A stretch of 64,000 bases of DNA from Philodulcilactobacillus myokonensis (lineage in GTDB: Bacteria; Bacillota; Bacilli; Lactobacillales; Lactobacillaceae): positions 124,001 through 188,000 of the forward strand of contig NZ_BRPL01000002.1 of NCBI RefSeq assembly GCF_027923585.1, written 5' to 3'. Positions 3,734-25,256 of the stretch are shown here, one piece after another. Below the pieces are notes generated by a model. That model was not told where the DNA came from. It saw only the letters and a list, made by a program, of their open reading frames with translations, and made no database searches. The position numbers and the translations under genes are program-made. Within the stretch, counting starts at the first letter, position 1. Every line of letters starts with the position of its first letter.

Positions 3734-5359
3734 ATGAGTAATATTTTAAACGACCCATTTAAAAATAAAGGAACCGCTTTTACAAAAACTGAACGAAAAA
3801 ATTTACACTTAGAAGGCATGTTGCCACCTTACGTCCAGACGTTGGATGAACAGGCTAAACAAGCATATGCTCAATACAAAACGAAACCATCTGATTTATT
3901 AAAACGCCAATTCTTGATGGAAATTTTTAACGAAAACCGCGTTTTATTCTACAAATTATTTAGTCAGCACGTCGTTGAATTTATGCCAATTGTCTACGAT
4001 CCAACAATTGCAGATTCAATTGAAAATTATAGTGAAATTTTTGTTGATCCACAAAATGCCACTTTTCTTTCAATTGATGAACAGAAATCAAAAGCTTCCA
4101 TCAAAGAAGCATTGAAAAATGCTGCTGATGGTCGCGATATTCGTTTAATCGTTGTTACCGATGCAGAAGGAATCTTAGGAATTGGTGACTGGGGAACCAA
4201 CGGTGTTGATATCGCAGTCGGTAAACTGATGGTTTATACTGCCGCTGCCGGAATTGATCCGAGCCAAGTCCTTCCCGTTTCATTAGACGTTGGAACCAAT
4301 AATCAAAAATTATTAGATGATCCAATGTACTTAGGTAACCGTCATCAACGTGTAACTGGTCAACCTTACTATAACTTTGTTGATCAATTTGTTCACGCCG
4401 CTGAAGAATTGTTTCCCAAAATGTACCTTCACTTTGAAGACTTTGGTCGCAGTAACGCTGCCAACATTTTAGACAAGTATAAGGATCAATACACCGTTTT
4501 TAACGATGATATCCAAGGAACAGGAATTATTATTTTAGCTGCCATTCTAGGGGCTTTGAATATTTCCAAAGAAAAAATGGTTGATCAAAAGTACCTTTGC
4601 TTTGGTGCGGGAACCGCTGGTGCTGGAATTACCAGCCGGGTTTATGATGAATTTTTGCAACAAGGGTTAAGTCCCGAAGAAGCTAAGAAACATTTCTACA
4701 TGGTTGATAAACAGGGCTTATTATTCGATGACGATCCTAGTTTGACACCGGAACAAAAACCGTTTGCTAGAAAACGAAGTGAATTTGATCATCCCGAAAA
4801 ATTGAATAATTTATTAGGAGTCGTTAAAGCGGTTCAACCCACCATCATGGTCGGCACTTCAACCCAGCATAATGCCTTTACCAAGGAAGTGATCCAGGCA
4901 ATGGCGGCTCATACTAAACGGCCGATTGTTATGCCAATTTCTAACCCCACTAAATTAATCGAAGCAACCGCTGATGACATTATGAAGTGGACTAATGGAA
5001 AGGCACTGGTTGCAACCGGAACCCCTAGTGAACCAGTCAATGTCAATGGTGTTGATTATGAAATTGGTCAGGCTAACAACGCTTTAGTTTACCCTGGATT
5101 AGGTTTAGGTGTGATTGCTTCACAAGCTAAGGTCTTAAACGATGAAATGATTTCTGCCGCTGCCCATTCACTAGGTGGGATTGTTGATCCTGAAAAACCA
5201 GGGGCTGCCATTTTGCCACCAGTATCAAAGTTGAATCAATTTTCTGATACGGTTGCTAGAGCCGTTGCTAAAAGTGTTGTTAAACAGGGATTGAATAAGC
5301 AACCAATCAAAGATATTGATCAAGCCATCCAAGACACTAAGTGGGAACCAAAGTATTAA
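3734..5359 (+). CDS. mleA: malolactic enzyme (L-malate to L-lactate + CO2)
   Basis: 541 residues, the length of lactobacillus malolactic enzymes. It is an NAD- and Mn-dependent member of the malic enzyme superfamily that decarboxylates L-malate to L-lactate without releasing pyruvate. Visible landmarks: [19 protein letters not shown] (malate/metal region, residues ~138-156), [11 protein letters not shown] and [10 protein letters not shown] (metal ligands, ~236-262), the nucleotide-binding GAGTAGAG (~290-297) and the C-terminal Rossmann half with MPISNPT. Ribosome site AAAGGGG. Its own regulator mleR is divergent, and a hairpin terminator follows. Malolactic conversion consumes protons and helps acid tolerance. 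Confidence 0.95.
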
Positions 5360-5376
5360 TTAAATCATTTAAAATT

Positions 5377-5416
5377 AAAAACCACAATTTAGTTTAAAAA
5401 ACTAGGTTGTGGTTTT
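5377..5416 (+). terminator. intrinsic terminator after mleA
   Basis: AAAACCACAA / TTGTGGTTTT arms with a loop containing further complementarity (TTTAGTTTAAAAAACTA). Confidence 0.8.
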
Positions 5417-5500
5417 GTTGCGTTATATATCATTATGATAAACAATTGTATGCTACAATTAACAAAATGGAAAATTGTTATATATTTGGAGGTCGTATAA

Positions 5501-5629
5501 ATGCGCAGCTATAGTAAAAGTGATTTTAAATCGACCGTAAATCAATTTGTTGGTAAACCTAATCTAAAAAAGGAACAAAAAGAAATACAGAAAGTAGCAG
5601 ATTATTTTAAATGCGTAATAAAACATTAG
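5501..5629 (+). CDS. short ORF, possible antitoxin partner of the GNAT pseudogene
   Basis: 42 residues (MRSYSKSDFKSTVNQFVGKP...) with an excellent GGAGG ribosome site 8 nt before the ATG. It overlaps the start of the following GNAT pseudogene by 19 nt, the kind of coupling seen in antitoxin-acetyltransferase modules. I do not recognise the protein. It is rather short for a DUF1778-type antitoxin and may itself be truncated. Confidence 0.45.
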   Translation: MRSYSKSDFKSTVNQFVGKPNLKKEQKEIQKVADYFKCVIKH

Positions 5630-6244
5630 AAGACGTTCTTGAAATCCATGGTGAGAATATTAATTCTTCTCTTTTAAATTTATCAAATTTTAATTGCGGA
5701 TATAATAATTTAAATGAATATTTAAAAGAAACAGCAAAAATAGATTCCAAAACTGGCGTTAATAAATAGTATTAATAGTGAGGGTAACAAGAAGCCGTTG
5801 GGATATTATTCGATTGCTGCTTCTTTAATATTAATATCTGGAAAAATAGATGCTGATAATTTTTCTGATATAGATTATTCCAATTCATATATTGAATCAA
5901 CTGTCAGATTTCCGGTTATTAAAATAAATGATTTTGCTGTTGATAAAAGATTTCAAAGAAATAAAATCGGAACTAAAATGATGTTTTATCTTTTCAATAA
6001 TCTTTATTTGATGTATTCGATTGCTAATATTGGAATGACAGCGATAACGTTACAATCAAAAAATAGTGCAGTTGAATTTTACAAAAAATTTGGGTTTAAA
6101 TATGTACATAAAGACTATAATGATTTGAGAGTCGATCCATTTGGGAATAAAGATTACTATCCAATGATGATAGGAATGGATAAAGTATTTAAAATAGTTG
6201 AAGAATCTGGATTTCCTGTTTCTAATGATCCTTATAATCCTTAA
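5611..6244 (+). pseudogene. GNAT-family acetyltransferase, broken near 5765
   Basis: The 5' part (ATG 5611) encodes LLNLSNFNCGYNNLNEYLKE and AKIDSKTGVNK, the N-terminus typical of GNAT toxins or small acetyltransferases, then hits a stop at 5767-5769. The remainder of the fold continues in another frame: KKPLGYYSIAAS, the acetyl-CoA loop region FAVDKRFQRNKIGTKMM, and NSAVEFYKKFGF. The gene thus carries a frameshift or small deletion where the family has the strand before GYYS. Function is presumably lost. Confidence 0.75.
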
Positions 6245-6290
6245 TACTTTATTATGTTTAAAAAATTTAAACAAAGCTTTTTATTAATAC

Positions 6291-6330
6291 AAGAGACGCA
6301 ATTTAATTTTAAAAATAAATTGCGTCTCTT
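6291..6330. terminator. hairpin terminator after GNAT pseudogene
   Basis: AAGAGACGCAATTTA / TAAATTGCGTCTCTT arms flanking an AT loop; the stem is very strong. Confidence 0.75.
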
Positions 6331-6345
6331 GTGTCACACCCAAAA

Positions 6346-6361
6346 TGTTTCACGTGAAACA
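6346..6361. promoter_or_regulatory. parS: parS chromosome partition site (ParB/Spo0J binding)
   Basis: TGTTTCACGTGAAACA, a perfect 16-bp palindrome identical to the established parS consensus of Firmicutes (TGTTNCACGTGAAACA). ParB nucleates here and spreads, loading SMC. In known genomes most parS copies lie near oriC. It sits in the short gap between a terminator and the two-component operon. Confidence 0.95.
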
Positions 6362-6450
6362 TTTTTGTTAAACATTGATTGTAACAGTGATTTCACAGCC
6401 TAAATTATGTTATGATTTCATTAAATCAATTTACTAAAGGAAATTGTAAA

Positions 6451-7143
6451 ATGAAAAATTTAGATATTCTATTAATTGAAGACGATGCGACTTTAGCCAA
6501 TAGTGTTGCCACTTTTTTGAAACCATTTGCGAACGTTAAAATTTCACACGACGGTTATGAAGGTCAGGCACTGGGTGAAGAAAACATCTATGATTTAGCG
6601 GTTTTAGATTTAATGCTCCCTGGAATTAGTGGTTATGATATTTTGAAACACTGGCGGGAAAAGGATCAATTAGATTTACCAGTATTAATTTTAACCGCGA
6701 AAGATACTTTAAACGATAAGATTAAGGGCTTTTCTGATGGGGCGGATGATTATTTAACCAAACCGTTTCACAGGGAAGAATTAATTCTACGGATCAAAGC
6801 ACTATTAAGAAGGTCGGGTGTCATTAGCGACACACGAACGCTTAATAAAAATCATTTTGCTGTCGATTTAGATAATCGGTCGACGACGTATTTTAACCAG
6901 CCCCTAAAATTAAACGGGAAAGAATACGATTTACTGGTTTACTTTCTCCAAAATCCTAACATTATCATCACAAAGGAACAGATTTTCAATCGGCTCTGGG
7001 GATTTGAATCTGATACTTCAATTACCGTGGTGGAAGTTTATATGAGTAATTTAAGACGTAAAATTAAAGCCATTCATAATCAACAGCCAATTAAAACCGT
7101 ACGTGGCGTTGGCTACATGATGGAAGATGACGTTCAAAAATGA
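6451..7143 (+). CDS. OmpR/PhoB-family response regulator
   Basis: About 230 residues. The receiver domain has the acidic pocket (LIEDD), the phospho-acceptor Asp in AVLDLMLPGISGYD, the conserved Thr/Ser of LILTAKD and Lys of DDYLTKPF. The C-terminal winged helix shows GKEYDLLVYFLQNPNIIITKE and VEVYMSNLRRKIK ending in VRGVGYM. The start is ATG 6451 with AAAGGAAAT upstream; the in-frame ATG at 6412 lacks a ribosome site. It overlaps the kinase gene by 4 nt (ATGA). The pair resembles CiaRH-type systems, but the signal is unknown. Confidence 0.9.
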   Translation: MKNLDILLIEDDATLANSVATFLKPFANVKISHDGYEGQALGEENIYDLAVLDLMLPGISGYDILKHWREKDQLDLPVLILTAKDTLNDKIKGFSDGADDYLTKPFHREELILRIKALLRRSGVISDTRTLNKNHFAVDLDNRSTTYFNQPLKLNGKEYDLLVYFLQNPNIIITKEQIFNRLWGFESDTSITVVEVYMSNLRRKIKAIHNQQPIKTVRGVGYMMEDDVQK

Positions 7144-16291: not shown

Positions 16292-16711
16292 TTAACGGCC
16301 GTGTCTGATTTGATGTAATTTGGTGTAAGGCCGTTGAATGTGTTCCAATTTACGGTCCTTTCTAAAAATTTCAAATGCCGAACTGCTGTAATATTTATGG
16401 TTATTAGTTTGCCAAACGATGCTGTCGTTCACAATGTAACGATTGGCACCACCGTGGTTAACGACCGCAATAAAATGCTTCTGTTTTAACGTTTTGGTGC
16501 CGCGATAAATCGTCTGCCGACTTTTGCCAGTAATCTGGGTTAATTCAGCAGATGTAATTTCACGCTGGTTACTTTTGTCCATGATGTCGATGAGGTAAAA
16601 CAAAATCTCACACGCGTTGGCATCGTGTTTCATTAAATCAATGATATTACCCATTTTAGCTTTGTTGATCCGCAACCAACTGTGGTAGATTGATTCGTTT
16701 TGGTTTGCCAT
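16292..16711 (-). CDS. RepL-like winged-helix protein (plasmid replication family), chromosomal
   Basis: 139 residues. The layout NACEILFYLIDIMDKSNQREITSAEL, SRQTIYRGTKTLKQKHFI, NRYIVNDSIVWQTNNHKYY closely resembles the Firmicute RepL family of plasmid replication initiators, in which a winged helix is followed by an FVND..W pattern. No other plasmid replication gene is nearby. It may therefore be a captured replicon fragment or a regulator derived from one. A perfect inverted repeat overlaps its probable promoter, suggesting autoregulation. Confidence 0.65.
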   Translation of the reverse strand: MANQNESIYHSWLRINKAKMGNIIDLMKHDANACEILFYLIDIMDKSNQREITSAELTQITGKSRQTIYRGTKTLKQKHFIAVVNHGGANRYIVNDSIVWQTNNHKYYSSSAFEIFRKDRKLEHIQRPYTKLHQIRHGR

Positions 16712-18354: not shown

Positions 18355-18858
18355 CTATTTTGCTAACCAATTTGATGTATCAAAGTATTGCGGGGTATCA
18401 TGATGAACCTTGTGCCTAGTCCACGTTGTGATTTGTGAGAAATATCCCATATTGGTGTACACTTTCAATGATCTTTGACCATTCTTTAATTTTGCACTCC
18501 AGTAGATAATGGGAGCACCTTTTTTAGCATCCTGCTTACCAGTAATGGTATAGGATAAGCCCTTATGGTGATTTAAACCATTTTCACATGTTTTGACATA
18601 TAAGAAATGGGTGTTGCCATCATGGTGGTCGTGACGATTAATCTTAAAATTGTTAACCGTCACTGAATGTTTTTTGACCGTCATGATGTCATATTTATGT
18701 TCATATTGATTGTAGCGGTACCACCTGCCGCGAAGTTCGGTCGGGGTTGTATAATGCCCTTGATAACTGGCATGGGCAGGGGTTGCAGTAAAACTGACAA
18801 TCGTTAGTAAAAATGCAACACTAGCTAAAATGCTAAATAGGTACTTTTTAAAATTCAT
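18355..18858 (-). CDS. secreted small protein of the TPTELRGxWY family (copy 1)
   Basis: 167 residues: signal peptide MNFKKYLFSILASVAFLLTI ending PAHA-S, then SYQGHYTTPTELRGRWYRYN. The mature part is His/Lys/Tyr-rich and predicted all-beta. Two paralogues are encoded at 24014-24562 and 24589-25155, all sharing the signal peptide plus the (S/T)PTE(I/L)RGTWY entry motif and a W/Y..SKRKI/AKLKNG region. It resembles the small secreted beta proteins common in lactobacilli. No enzymatic residues recognised. Confidence 0.7.
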   Translation of the reverse strand: MNFKKYLFSILASVAFLLTIVSFTATPAHASYQGHYTTPTELRGRWYRYNQYEHKYDIMTVKKHSVTVNNFKINRHDHHDGNTHFLYVKTCENGLNHHKGLSYTITGKQDAKKGAPIIYWSAKLKNGQRSLKVYTNMGYFSQITTWTRHKVHHDTPQYFDTSNWLAK

Positions 18859-20226: not shown

Positions 20227-20484
20227 TTATATTATCATAATGATTGCCAGCACGATGTTAAACATAATTTCCCAACGCAGGATTCTAAAAATCATGTTTT
20301 GAGTATGAAATGATTTGGTGATTTTAATTTGGACTAATGAAACTAGAATAGTGTAGATACATACAAAATTCATCCCATTTTGCGGATGACTGCTATTAAC
20401 TGACAAAACGATAAATTCCATAAAAGTTAGTAAGATTAAGATTGACATTAGCGTTCGATCATTGATGTTGGACCATTTAAACAT
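20227..20484 (-). CDS. small three-pass membrane protein (paralogue A)
   Basis: 85 residues; starts MFKWSNINDRTLMSILILL with FMEFIVLSVNSSHPQ. It aligns along its length with the 94-residue protein at 21002-21286 (shared WS-x-(I/V)ND, ILLL-x-FME, NSS-x-P), so the two are paralogues. Three membrane segments. A family name is not known to me; such small membrane proteins in lactobacilli include immunity-like proteins, but there is no bacteriocin gene adjacent. Confidence 0.6.
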   Translation of the reverse strand: MFKWSNINDRTLMSILILLTFMEFIVLSVNSSHPQNGMNFVCIYTILVSLVQIKITKSFHTQNMIFRILRWEIMFNIVLAIIMII

Positions 20485-21001: not shown

Positions 21002-21286
21002 TTAAAGAATATACATATAAATAAAATATCCAACCACTAAAATAACGTTTAATATTGCTAATAATACCGTAAATTGAATGACGACCTTTAAGTGATTAAA
21101 GGAAAATAATAATTTTAAATGAAGGATAAAGCCGATAATTAAATATGTAATAATATAGGAATCACTGCTAGGATTATCGCTACTGTTTGCAAATATCACC
21201 ATACATTCCATGAACAGCAATAACAGAATTACGAATGCCAACACATAATCGTTGACGCCTGACCAATCGAACCACTTTTTGAGCAT
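21002..21286 (-). CDS. small three-pass membrane protein (paralogue B)
   Basis: 94 residues, MLKKWFDWSGVNDYVLAFVI, then LLFMECMVIFANSSDNP and two further membrane segments. Paralogous to the protein at 20227-20484. AGGAGTTG ribosome site before the ATG. It lies directly downstream (same strand) of the large structured RNA candidate, whose 3' boundary is only 30 nt upstream. Confidence 0.65.
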   Translation of the reverse strand: MLKKWFDWSGVNDYVLAFVILLLLFMECMVIFANSSDNPSSDSYIITYLIIGFILHLKLLFSFNHLKVVIQFTVLLAILNVILVVGYFIYMYIL

Positions 21287-21317
21287 TTAAACAACTCCTA
21301 ATTTATATTTATTGTGT

Positions 21318-21906
21318 AGCCAGCTTAGCAACCACACTCTAAATTCCGTTCTACAAATTATGTATTACTGTGATGAGGCATCCTCCAGCATAGAGGGAGT
21401 GAAGGGTTTTTGAGTCGATTTTGCCCCTGGTTTGGGAAGAAACAAAATCAATTCATAACTAAACTAAAGCACCCACAGCACGTCGGTCGCTCGAGCCCCG
21501 TCATCGCCTATGGCATTTCGGACTTGTCGTTTTAGGCAAGTCGCCGTTAACTGCCGATCCTACTTTTTCGGATCAATCCATCAAAAAAACGCCCTTGATG
21601 GACGTTACTAATACGTATTTTTATTATAGTTCGATTAATAACACATTTAACGACCCCTGATGCTTTTAACATCACGTTCAGCCACCATGCTTTCCGTAGC
21701 ACTCACGTTCGGTATCCTTGTCGTGTCATAGGAAACTTACGAATACCTAAAGGCAATTATTGCAGTGGCTACCTTACGACCTGTCTACTTTTTATGTTCC
21801 ACCGTTAATTGCGTCGCCTCATCTGACAATCACAATTAATTTAGTACTGGGGTTGATATTACTATCGAGCCCTGTGTGGCTTGGCTCCCACACGGTCTAA
21901 GCAGCT
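21318..21906 (-). ncRNA. large structured noncoding RNA candidate, about 590 nt (ROOL/GOLLD-like size class)
   Basis: No ORF fits this GC-richer block. On the minus strand the ends pair with each other: GCTTAG (21897-21902) with CTAAGC (21323-21328), continued by AGC/GCT. An inner long-range helix pairs GATGAGGC (21816-21823) with GCCTCATC (21372-21379). The 5' domain shows a pseudoknot-like arrangement: GTGTGG/CCACAC stem whose loop GAGCC can pair with the following GGCTC. Local hairpins include GGATC-type, GACTTG/CAAGTC, CCATCAA/TTTGATGG, TGATG/CATCA and CCTC/GAGG. A promoter is seen just upstream. The class assignment is inference from size, host group and architecture only. Confidence 0.6.
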
Positions 21907-21908
21907 AA

Positions 21909-21936
21909 ATCATACCCAATAATCTTTGACAAACAA
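21909..21936 (-). promoter_or_regulatory. promoter of the structured RNA
   Basis: On the minus strand TTGTTT (21936-21931), 16 bp, TATGAT (21914-21909); initiation would fall near 21902, exactly at the 5' strand of the terminal helix. Confidence 0.6.
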
Positions 21937-21987
21937 TTATGTAATAGGATATTATAAACATGTATTCGAACATACATTTTCAGTTTC

Positions 21988-22060
21988 CCCAGGGCCTAAT
22001 CTGGGGAGCTGCTTACATATTCAATTTTAAGAGGTAGCCATTATGTCGGCTACCTTTTTT
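21988..22060 (+). terminator. hairpin CCCCAG/CTGGGG and intrinsic terminator on the plus strand
   Basis: CCCCAGggcctaatCTGGGG at 21988-22008 and GGTAGCC / GGCTACC plus T6 at 22033-22060. No ORF precedes it on this strand, so a short RNA starting in the 21940-21980 gap is possible. Confidence 0.55.
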
Positions 22061-24013: not shown

Positions 24014-24562
24014 TTATTTTCCAATCAACTTCTTCGCGTTGGCATACGTGCCGTGATAAGTAAATGAATAGTTATGATAAATTTTATTTCTGGTCATAAT
24101 TTCAAAGTCAGCCGAAAAATGTTTGTGATTGGATTTATTAACGTCAATTTCCATTAAAACGCGGTGCCCATTGATTTTACGATGGGAAAGCCAGAAGACA
24201 CTATCGTTAGTGATATTCTTGATTGATTTAACTTTCGTCATTGTGTATACCGTTCCAGCAAAACCAGTTTTTGATTTTGGAAAACGATAAATATGAGCGA
24301 CTTCACCTTCACAATCGGAATATTTGGTGGATAAAAATGGAACTTTATCAACTAGCAAAGTATCTTTAGTGTATTTAATTGGAAATGACGCAAATTTACT
24401 GTGGCTTTTACTGTCAACGTACCAGGTACCTCTGATTTCAGTTGGGGAAGCATGGTGGCCGGCATAACTAGCGTGGGCTTGTTGATTAACGTTACCAATC
24501 CCAATTGGTAAGACTAATGCTAAACTGGCAAAAGCAATTGCAAATTTTCTTTTAATCAACAT
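24014..24562 (-). CDS. secreted small protein of the TPTELRGxWY family (copy 2)
   Basis: 182 residues. Signal peptide MLIKRKFAIAFASLALVLPI with cleavage after QQAHA, then SYAGHHASPTEIRGTWY. It shares about the whole architecture with copy 3 immediately upstream (24589-25155): DTL/HHLYMNKIKFL, FAGTVYTMTK/FAGNVYTIVK, RKI-GHRVL/RKIGGHHVL. The pair is a tandem duplication; copy 1 at 18.4 kb is more diverged. All mature domains are His/Lys/Tyr-rich, presumably extracellular beta proteins. Confidence 0.7.
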   Translation of the reverse strand: MLIKRKFAIAFASLALVLPIGIGNVNQQAHASYAGHHASPTEIRGTWYVDSKSHSKFASFPIKYTKDTLLVDKVPFLSTKYSDCEGEVAHIYRFPKSKTGFAGTVYTMTKVKSIKNITNDSVFWLSHRKINGHRVLMEIDVNKSNHKHFSADFEIMTRNKIYHNYSFTYHGTYANAKKLIGK

Positions 24563-24588: not shown

Positions 24589-25155
24589 TTATTTACCAAT
24601 TTCCTTTACAACTTTTTTGAAGCCACCCTTTAAAGAGTATGAATAATTATGATGGATCTTGGTTCGAGTCCAAACACCAACATCAGCTGAATAATGTTTT
24701 TTACTATGAATATGATCAAGATCCATTGTAATTAGGACATGGTGACCACCAATTTTACGCTTTGAAACGTAAACAATCCCATTTGAAAGTGATTTTTTCA
24801 TTGTCTTATCTTTTACAATTGTATAAACGTTTCCAGCGAATCCCGTCTGCTTAGGGGCGTAACGATTTACAGAAACAAATAAATTATCGCCACGATTATC
24901 AAAGCTGTTATATCCAGTTTTCAAAAATTTAATTTTATTCATATAAAGATGGTGCTTAGTAAACTTAATCTTAACGGTTCTGACGTGGTTACTAACATTT
25001 TTAAATGTTTGGTACCATGTGCCTCTGAGTTCGGTTGGAAATTGGTTTGGTCCCTTATAACTAGCGTGGGCTTGCTGATTAACGGCACCGATTCCAACTG
25101 GTAATACTAATGCTAAACTGGCAAAAACGGTAGCAAATTTTCTTTTGATTGACAT
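24589..25155 (-). CDS. secreted small protein of the TPTELRGxWY family (copy 3)
   Basis: 188 residues from ATG 25155, MSIKRKFATVFASLALVLPV, cleavage after QQAHA, then SYKGPNQFPTELRGTWYQTF. The upstream in-frame extension to 25233 has no ribosome site and would bury the signal peptide, so it is rejected. Tandem paralogue of copy 2, 26 bp apart and probably co-transcribed. Confidence 0.7.
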   Translation of the reverse strand: MSIKRKFATVFASLALVLPVGIGAVNQQAHASYKGPNQFPTELRGTWYQTFKNVSNHVRTVKIKFTKHHLYMNKIKFLKTGYNSFDNRGDNLFVSVNRYAPKQTGFAGNVYTIVKDKTMKKSLSNGIVYVSKRKIGGHHVLITMDLDHIHSKKHYSADVGVWTRTKIHHNYSYSLKGGFKKVVKEIGK

Positions 25156-25215
25156 AGATAGGGCTTCTTTTTCATAAATTATATTTATGTTAACTTGCCG
25201 ATGAAATTTTGACAA

Positions 25216-25256
25216 GTCGAAAATTATCCACAACTAAATGGTTGTGGATAACTTTT
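25216..25256 (-). terminator. terminator of pnuC
   Basis: AGTTATCCACAACC / GTTGTGGATAATTTT on the minus strand. Confidence 0.65.

Follow-up and report, generated by a model that had tools for sequence, protein, structure and literature searches.

The window analysed here is a 64,000-nt stretch of a 1.4-Mb chromosomal contig of Philodulcilactobacillus myokonensis, and it contains an intergenic block of 589 nt that specifies a large structured RNA (Table 1). A sequence-only reading of the same DNA had singled the block out as noncoding and GC-richer than its surroundings, and this description holds: its GC content is 44% relative to 31% for the window, with 1.7% of 589-nt windows equally GC-rich, and a coding role was rejected as nothing but short ORFs lie inside. 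The minus strand from 21300 to 21910 folds better than 20 of 20 dinucleotide shuffles (z -3.95). Two small membrane ORFs on the same strand (20227-20484 and 21002-21286) are paralogous, with 32% identity (E 2e-11), and belong to no Pfam family. Further away are three secreted-looking proteins of 167-214 aa (18355-18858, 24014-24562 and 24589-25233, all minus strand) that appear related by eye through a PTE(I/L)RG(T/R)WY motif, the first of them with no Pfam match, and a dense defence island (27235-58060, PADLOC models) that includes a UvrD-like helicase (GajB/DRT-helicase), PDC-M26A, an NsnA-like system, HEC-06/Orf5, a type II methylase and nuclease, a type I RM system and PDC-M48B. There are no tRNA genes in the window.

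Table 1. Coordinates of the RNA, its structural elements and its immediate neighbours in the window
Feature	Position	Strand	Remarks
Large structured RNA	21318..21906	-	Limits from the sequence-only reading, 5′ and 3′ ends putative; core 95.9 bits
P1, 5′ hairpin	21874..21893	-	6-bp covarying stem, 8-nt loop GAGCCAAG
Core modelled as R1	21556..21651	-	94 positions, three helices
Core helix 1	21604..21642 (21642-21634 with 21612-21604)	-	Covarying; A-rich loop
Core helix 2	21577..21602 (21602-21595 with 21584-21577)	-	Covarying; encloses GGGCG-U7
Core helix 3	21556..21574	-	Covarying hairpin; GAAAANGUA-type loop in many members
Terminator-like hairpin AACGUCC..GGGCGUU with U-tract	21588..21606	-	Overlaps helix 2 (pseudoknot or alternative pairing)
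3′ hairpin GAUUUUG..CAAAAUC	21417..21449	-	GGGG-containing internal loop; read by eye
Long-range 8-bp helix of the sequence-only reading	21372..21823 (21823-21816 with 21379-21372)	-	Present; chance level; without comparative support
Divergent small-RNA-like unit (putative)	21926..22060	+	Promoter-like 21926-21955, hairpins, terminator-like end 22031-22060
94-aa small membrane ORF	21002..21286	-	Begins immediately downstream of the RNA; local neighbour only

Taken alone, the window sequence makes a thin case for an RNA. The pairing described for the ends of the block (GCTTAG with CTAAGC) is present, at RNA positions 5 and 579. So is a long-range 8-bp helix, GATGAGGC with GCCTCATC at RNA positions 84 and 528, but it does not rise above chance: although no other perfect 8-mer pair in the block spans 200 nt or more, 300 shuffles yield 1.06 such pairs on average, and the helix alone is therefore no evidence. 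A duplex-energy permutation with 16 relatives gave an own mean of -17.8 and a cross mean of -16.7 kcal/mol, which leaves an equivalent pairing in the relatives unsupported. The minus-strand promoter that had been proposed (TTGTTT-16-TATGAT) does not appear in the output of our promoter scan (7 in total compared to a shuffle mean of 5.5), and the best match near the RNA 5′ end, TTGACA-18-TATTAT at 21926-21955, is on the plus strand and directed away from the RNA. The scan for terminator-like hairpins found one, compared to 0.8 expected in shuffles. The structured RNA is real because its homologues show the pairing.

The homologues are numerous, and many reside on plasmids. Three plasmids are matched by blastn with the window block itself, and when the RNA of a relative together with ~95 nt of 3′ flank is used as the BLAST query, 552 plasmid records are matched at 637 places, with six of these records covering 80% of the query and the others less, some perhaps through the flank only. 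The relative's RNA also matches phage Lb (two entries, one genome) and 56 of 397 Lactobacillaceae genomes, and a search with a pattern of the conserved core picks up 11 viral and 33 genome contigs. R1, a covariance model of this core, was built from 16 sequences with the window among the seeds, and finds the RNA in 69 of the 397 Lactobacillaceae genomes and 18 of 40 genera, or 67 and 16 without two doubtful genomes; a likely false positive with no family motifs around it (L156 in G318, E 0.0014) and a degenerate copy (L155 in G070) are kept in the larger figures as well as in the 46-row alignment described below and its pair counts. The window copy, as a seed sequence, scores 95.9 bits (E 7e-16), similar to the plasmid copies. 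Because R1, with stricter filters, finds only the window's own genome among 398 genomes across the class, the family looks confined to the Lactobacillaceae; its members are highly diverse in sequence. The RNA is often present as one copy per contig – genome G374 has seven copies on seven contigs – and there are two copies on one carrier (L099) and a further copy on a 182-kb contig (L093). The phage Lb record (L082, 43.4 kb) and eleven other entries filed as phage or viral contigs (L071-L081) have the same RNA, most with a ParA gene; two of the viral contigs (38,125 and 24,661 bases) are exactly as long as plasmid records, and some of these contigs may thus be plasmids or phage-plasmids.

Four helices, P1 and the three helices of the core, covary strongly. 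In a MAFFT alignment of 16 sequences, 87.3% of core cells are paired, compared to 32-57% when the partners are slid, and 15 of 22 pairs have changed on both sides. The alignment of 46 R1 matches (41 distinct, including the likely false positive and the degenerate copy) has 95.5% of cells paired, a figure that leans to structure because the alignment is fitted to the model. For P1, 92.1% of 114 cells are paired in 19 chosen sequences (28-48% when slid), with changes on both sides in five of six pairs. The window has both the P1 hairpin, with its GAGCCAAG-type loop, and the covarying core of the family. In the core helices of the model-fitted alignment G-U pairs outnumber A-C mismatches by 107 to 16, which places the RNA on the minus strand of the window as had been proposed. 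The wider proposal of a large structured RNA on this strand with ties to mobile elements is likewise borne out by the covarying and often plasmid-borne relatives. The family and its fold are secure: the block belongs to an undescribed family of structured RNAs, ~420-590 nt between predicted ends, that forms part of the backbone of many Lactobacillaceae plasmids.

Bacteria have few large structured RNAs, and the function of most of these is not known. The present family is absent from Rfam 15: none of 4227 Rfam families matches the window at the gathering score, and at E≤1 neither the window region nor any of 12 homologous loci has a match inside the RNA; all matches at these loci lie elsewhere (the Bacillus-plasmid RNA and two weak chance ones). 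STnc390 (E 0.016), Ref1C and snoZ5 score beside the RNA below gathering and were treated as chance. Rfam matches on the carriers scanned all lie outside the large RNA and are confined to group II introns and the Bacillus-plasmid RNA (RF01691), the latter on two carriers, at 471-531 of L005 and 207-267 of L165. An assignment to the ROOL class, which the sequence-only reading had suggested, fails with the ROOL model (RF03087, Rfam cut-off 99.1 bits), as there is no match in the block, in the homologous loci scanned or anywhere in the window's own genome, while the model recognises the divergent ROOL of Ligilactobacillus salivarius pMP118 at 130.4 bits and matches 4 of 151 family genomes. The GOLLD model (RF02032, 150 bits) has no match in the window region or the 12 homologous loci, and it matched no genome searched. 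The family is not described in the titles and abstract openings of the best literature matches listed, the scope being papers outside subscription (and so not the original reports on p256 and pWCFS103); the string 'lactobacill' is absent from the main text of a 26-genome RNA survey.

The usual plasmid neighbour of the RNA is a divergently transcribed ParA-type ATPase gene, and the small membrane genes noted beside the window copy are not common to its relatives. Of 30 genome contigs whose 5′ flank reaches 1 kb (L038-L070, with L045, L054 and L064 dropped for short flanks and L060 as the miss), 29 have ParA, a count that leans to one subtype because the contigs were found by one core pattern. 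Among 12 loci of greater diversity, 11 have it too (L140-L142, L147-L153, L157 as the miss, and L159, with L158 dropped for its short flank); both counts are of loci other than L143-L146, L154-L156, L092, L097 and L098, which the simple pattern does not see. The near end of ParA is ~500-785 nt from the core in the genome contigs and up to ~860 nt in the diverse loci, and a ParA gene is beside the RNA in the phage Lb record too. ParA was looked for and not found beside the RNA at L005, L087-L091, L093-L095, L099, L100, L102, L106, L109 and L157, some of which have short flanks, or by tblastn in the window. Upstream of the RNA, 21 of 29 representatives have a terminator-like hairpin on the opposite strand (a raw count with no shuffle baseline), which in the window is behind the TTGACA-18-TATTAT match, and this arrangement suggests a divergent small RNA beside the large one.

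Several carriers, down to 2.86 kb in size, have no recognisable Rep initiator. The listed proteins of a 2863-bp plasmid are DUF536 and HTH proteins only, neither of which is a Rep by NCBIfam; in a plasmid of 6353 bp, neither the five ORFs scanned with Pfam nor the gene list shows a Rep; and no Rep is listed for carriers of 5.3 and 5.7 kb or among the 36 listed genes of the 36-kb pWCFS103, PLSDB gene tables being incomplete. MOB-suite types the pWCFS103 replicon as rep_cluster_731, so a typed replicon sequence exists on this plasmid; PLSDB assigns no replicon type to six carriers. Unlabelled ORFs on the Rep-less carriers could be new Reps, and there are carriers with a Rep gene (L099, L100). 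One plasmid of Levilactobacillus brevis KB290 carries the RNA (BLAST), and a passage by the authors of that genome states that repABC-type genes are on all of its plasmids (PMC3609814).

We compared the distribution of the RNA with that of two Rep types, Rep_3 and RepA_N (the two types scanned, others being RCR, RepL and Inc18), in 15 genomes of no more than 10 contigs, taking one contig per genome as the chromosome. Rep_3 or RepA_N is on 7 of 31 RNA contigs and on 19 of 31 other non-chromosomal contigs (Fisher p=0.004), with the second 31 obtained as the listed numbers of contigs, which are perhaps rounded, less the chromosomes and the RNA contigs, and with one 110-kb contig in the comparison (G127 C1) that may be a piece of chromosome. 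Among the seven positive RNA contigs, two Rep genes are broken or partial. Four genomes (G301, G093, G249 and G345) divide cleanly into RNA contigs and Rep contigs. The comparison left out G000, whose copy is chromosomal, and two genomes of 20-30 contigs, in which the RNA is found with Rep (G078 C6) and without Rep_3/RepA_N (G109 C10 and C12). Cumulative GC skew in seven carriers and pTE15 has no consistent switch at the RNA.

As several carriers are without a recognisable replication protein, the RNA may let those plasmids copy themselves, and the reading that we tentatively favour is that it forms the core of a Rep-independent plasmid replicon. Rep-free replication as the job of the RNA is suggested by its distribution, and this function, proposed from distribution and by analogy, is advanced with the same reserve. 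A broader statement, which we put forward a little more cautiously still, is that the ~500-nt covarying RNA would be the replication determinant of a large class of Rep-free Lactobacillaceae plasmids, in 16-18 of 40 genera, with no Rfam relative and with ParA and DUF536 as interchangeable stability partners. On plasmids, the transcript would serve as the centre of a theta replicon that needs no Rep. Next to the ParA/repeat region, the folded RNA would place or process a primer, or else open up the origin; copy number may be adjusted by the divergent small transcript, and stability would come from ParA or, on small plasmids, from DUF536. Such a role would explain the replication of pWCFS103-like plasmids, provide a marker for replicon typing where protein-based typing fails, and offer new vectors for lactobacilli. 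The RNA is widely distributed on the plasmids of bacteria from food and gut.

Plasmids of the ColE1 type (class B) use a host-transcribed RNA primer, with no Rep and with a small RNA nearby. The manner of replication proposed here resembles theirs in all three respects, but the small RNA near the present family would be divergent, not antisense; as to replication without a plasmid Rep, several carriers have none that is recognisable and some have one. Closer to the hosts of this family, pTE15 of Limosilactobacillus reuteri is described as having a 1.3-kb minireplicon that depends on no Rep and precedes an AAA ATPase gene, and a copy number that is lowered by chloramphenicol, unlike that of a ColE1-type control (PMC9743546). 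Its noncoding region precedes the same kind of ATPase gene (AAA/ParA-type) as is found beside the RNA. Plasmid p256, reported in a passage of PMC8346141 as lacking replication genes and presumed to use theta replication, shares 112 nt of 3′ flank with the small carriers at 75% identity. In these two plasmids a Rep is not needed or not found, and several carriers resemble them in having none that is recognisable. R1 matches neither p256 nor the pTE15 replication region (4900-6650, best E 0.79), and they were set aside as members and are analogues. A short stretch of p256 (L164, 4884-4906) resembles part of the family RNA by eye. The Bacillus pLS20 minireplicon is also described as without Rep (PMC4490491), the comparison with the carriers being by description.

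It is less likely, and on balance improbable, that the RNA is a stand-alone stable plasmid RNA in the manner of ROOL, which assembles into a homo-multimeric cage, and perhaps multimeric itself, with no role in replication and next to ParA simply because both belong to a common backbone. Its size, elaborate fold, conserved unpaired loops and mobile-element setting would all fit, and there is a precedent in the L. salivarius megaplasmid RNA, a ROOL by the Rfam model, which according to passages in two reports reaches the level of 16S rRNA (PMC5643018) and is non-essential (PMC12286853). However, a stand-alone RNA does not predict the frequent occurrence of one copy per contig, a carrier of 2.86 kb, or the anticorrelation with Rep. 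More doubtful is a role for the RNA in partition or copy control, exercised together with ParA or its DNA site, while something else runs replication; the divergent ParA ~500-860 nt from the core in nearly all contigs counted and in phage Lb is in keeping with this, as is the wide variation in sequence among the ParA proteins, but the small DUF536 carriers and several type-B plasmids have no ParA nearby.

We consider it quite unlikely that the RNA is a giant 5′ leader or attenuator, in which the GGGCG-U6 hairpin would be a terminator governing read-through into a small downstream gene. The terminator-like hairpin within the RNA is kept, with its U6 or U7, in most alignment rows (exceptions include L144 and L106), and 10 of 29 representatives, the window among them, have an ORF with a ribosome-binding site after the RNA; but the same criterion finds none in the other 19, and by eye the downstream ORFs are dissimilar save for one pair common to L002 and L103. 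Moreover, conserved elements run 157-216 nt beyond the U-tract in the 11 representatives measured, with the 3′ hairpin followed in many members by a CUCUAARCU motif (by eye). Helix 2, which competes with the terminator-like hairpin, is partly downstream of the U-tract and forms only once this has been transcribed, a timing that does not allow it to be an antiterminator of the classical kind; classical attenuation is disfavoured, and a pseudoknot is likelier than a switch where the two overlap. Least probable by far is a diverged ROOL or GOLLD RNA, since the likenesses – to ROOL as a structured RNA of ~520-660 nt on plasmids and phages of lactobacilli with no known protein partner, and to GOLLD as a large mobile-element RNA whose first example came from L. 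brevis (PMC6582537) – are set against the model results above and the lack of tRNA genes in the window, ROOL often being near tRNA islands and GOLLD often near tRNA genes or with such genes inside it.

The copy in the window is a chromosomal one, on the 1.4-Mb contig and outside the plasmid setting beside ParA (tblastn in the window); under the tentatively favoured reading it could be what an integrated plasmid left behind, or else a copy that has been domesticated. On the same contig, 4.6 kb from the RNA, a RepL-like ORF (16292-16711, minus strand, E 3e-6) hints at possible plasmid debris.
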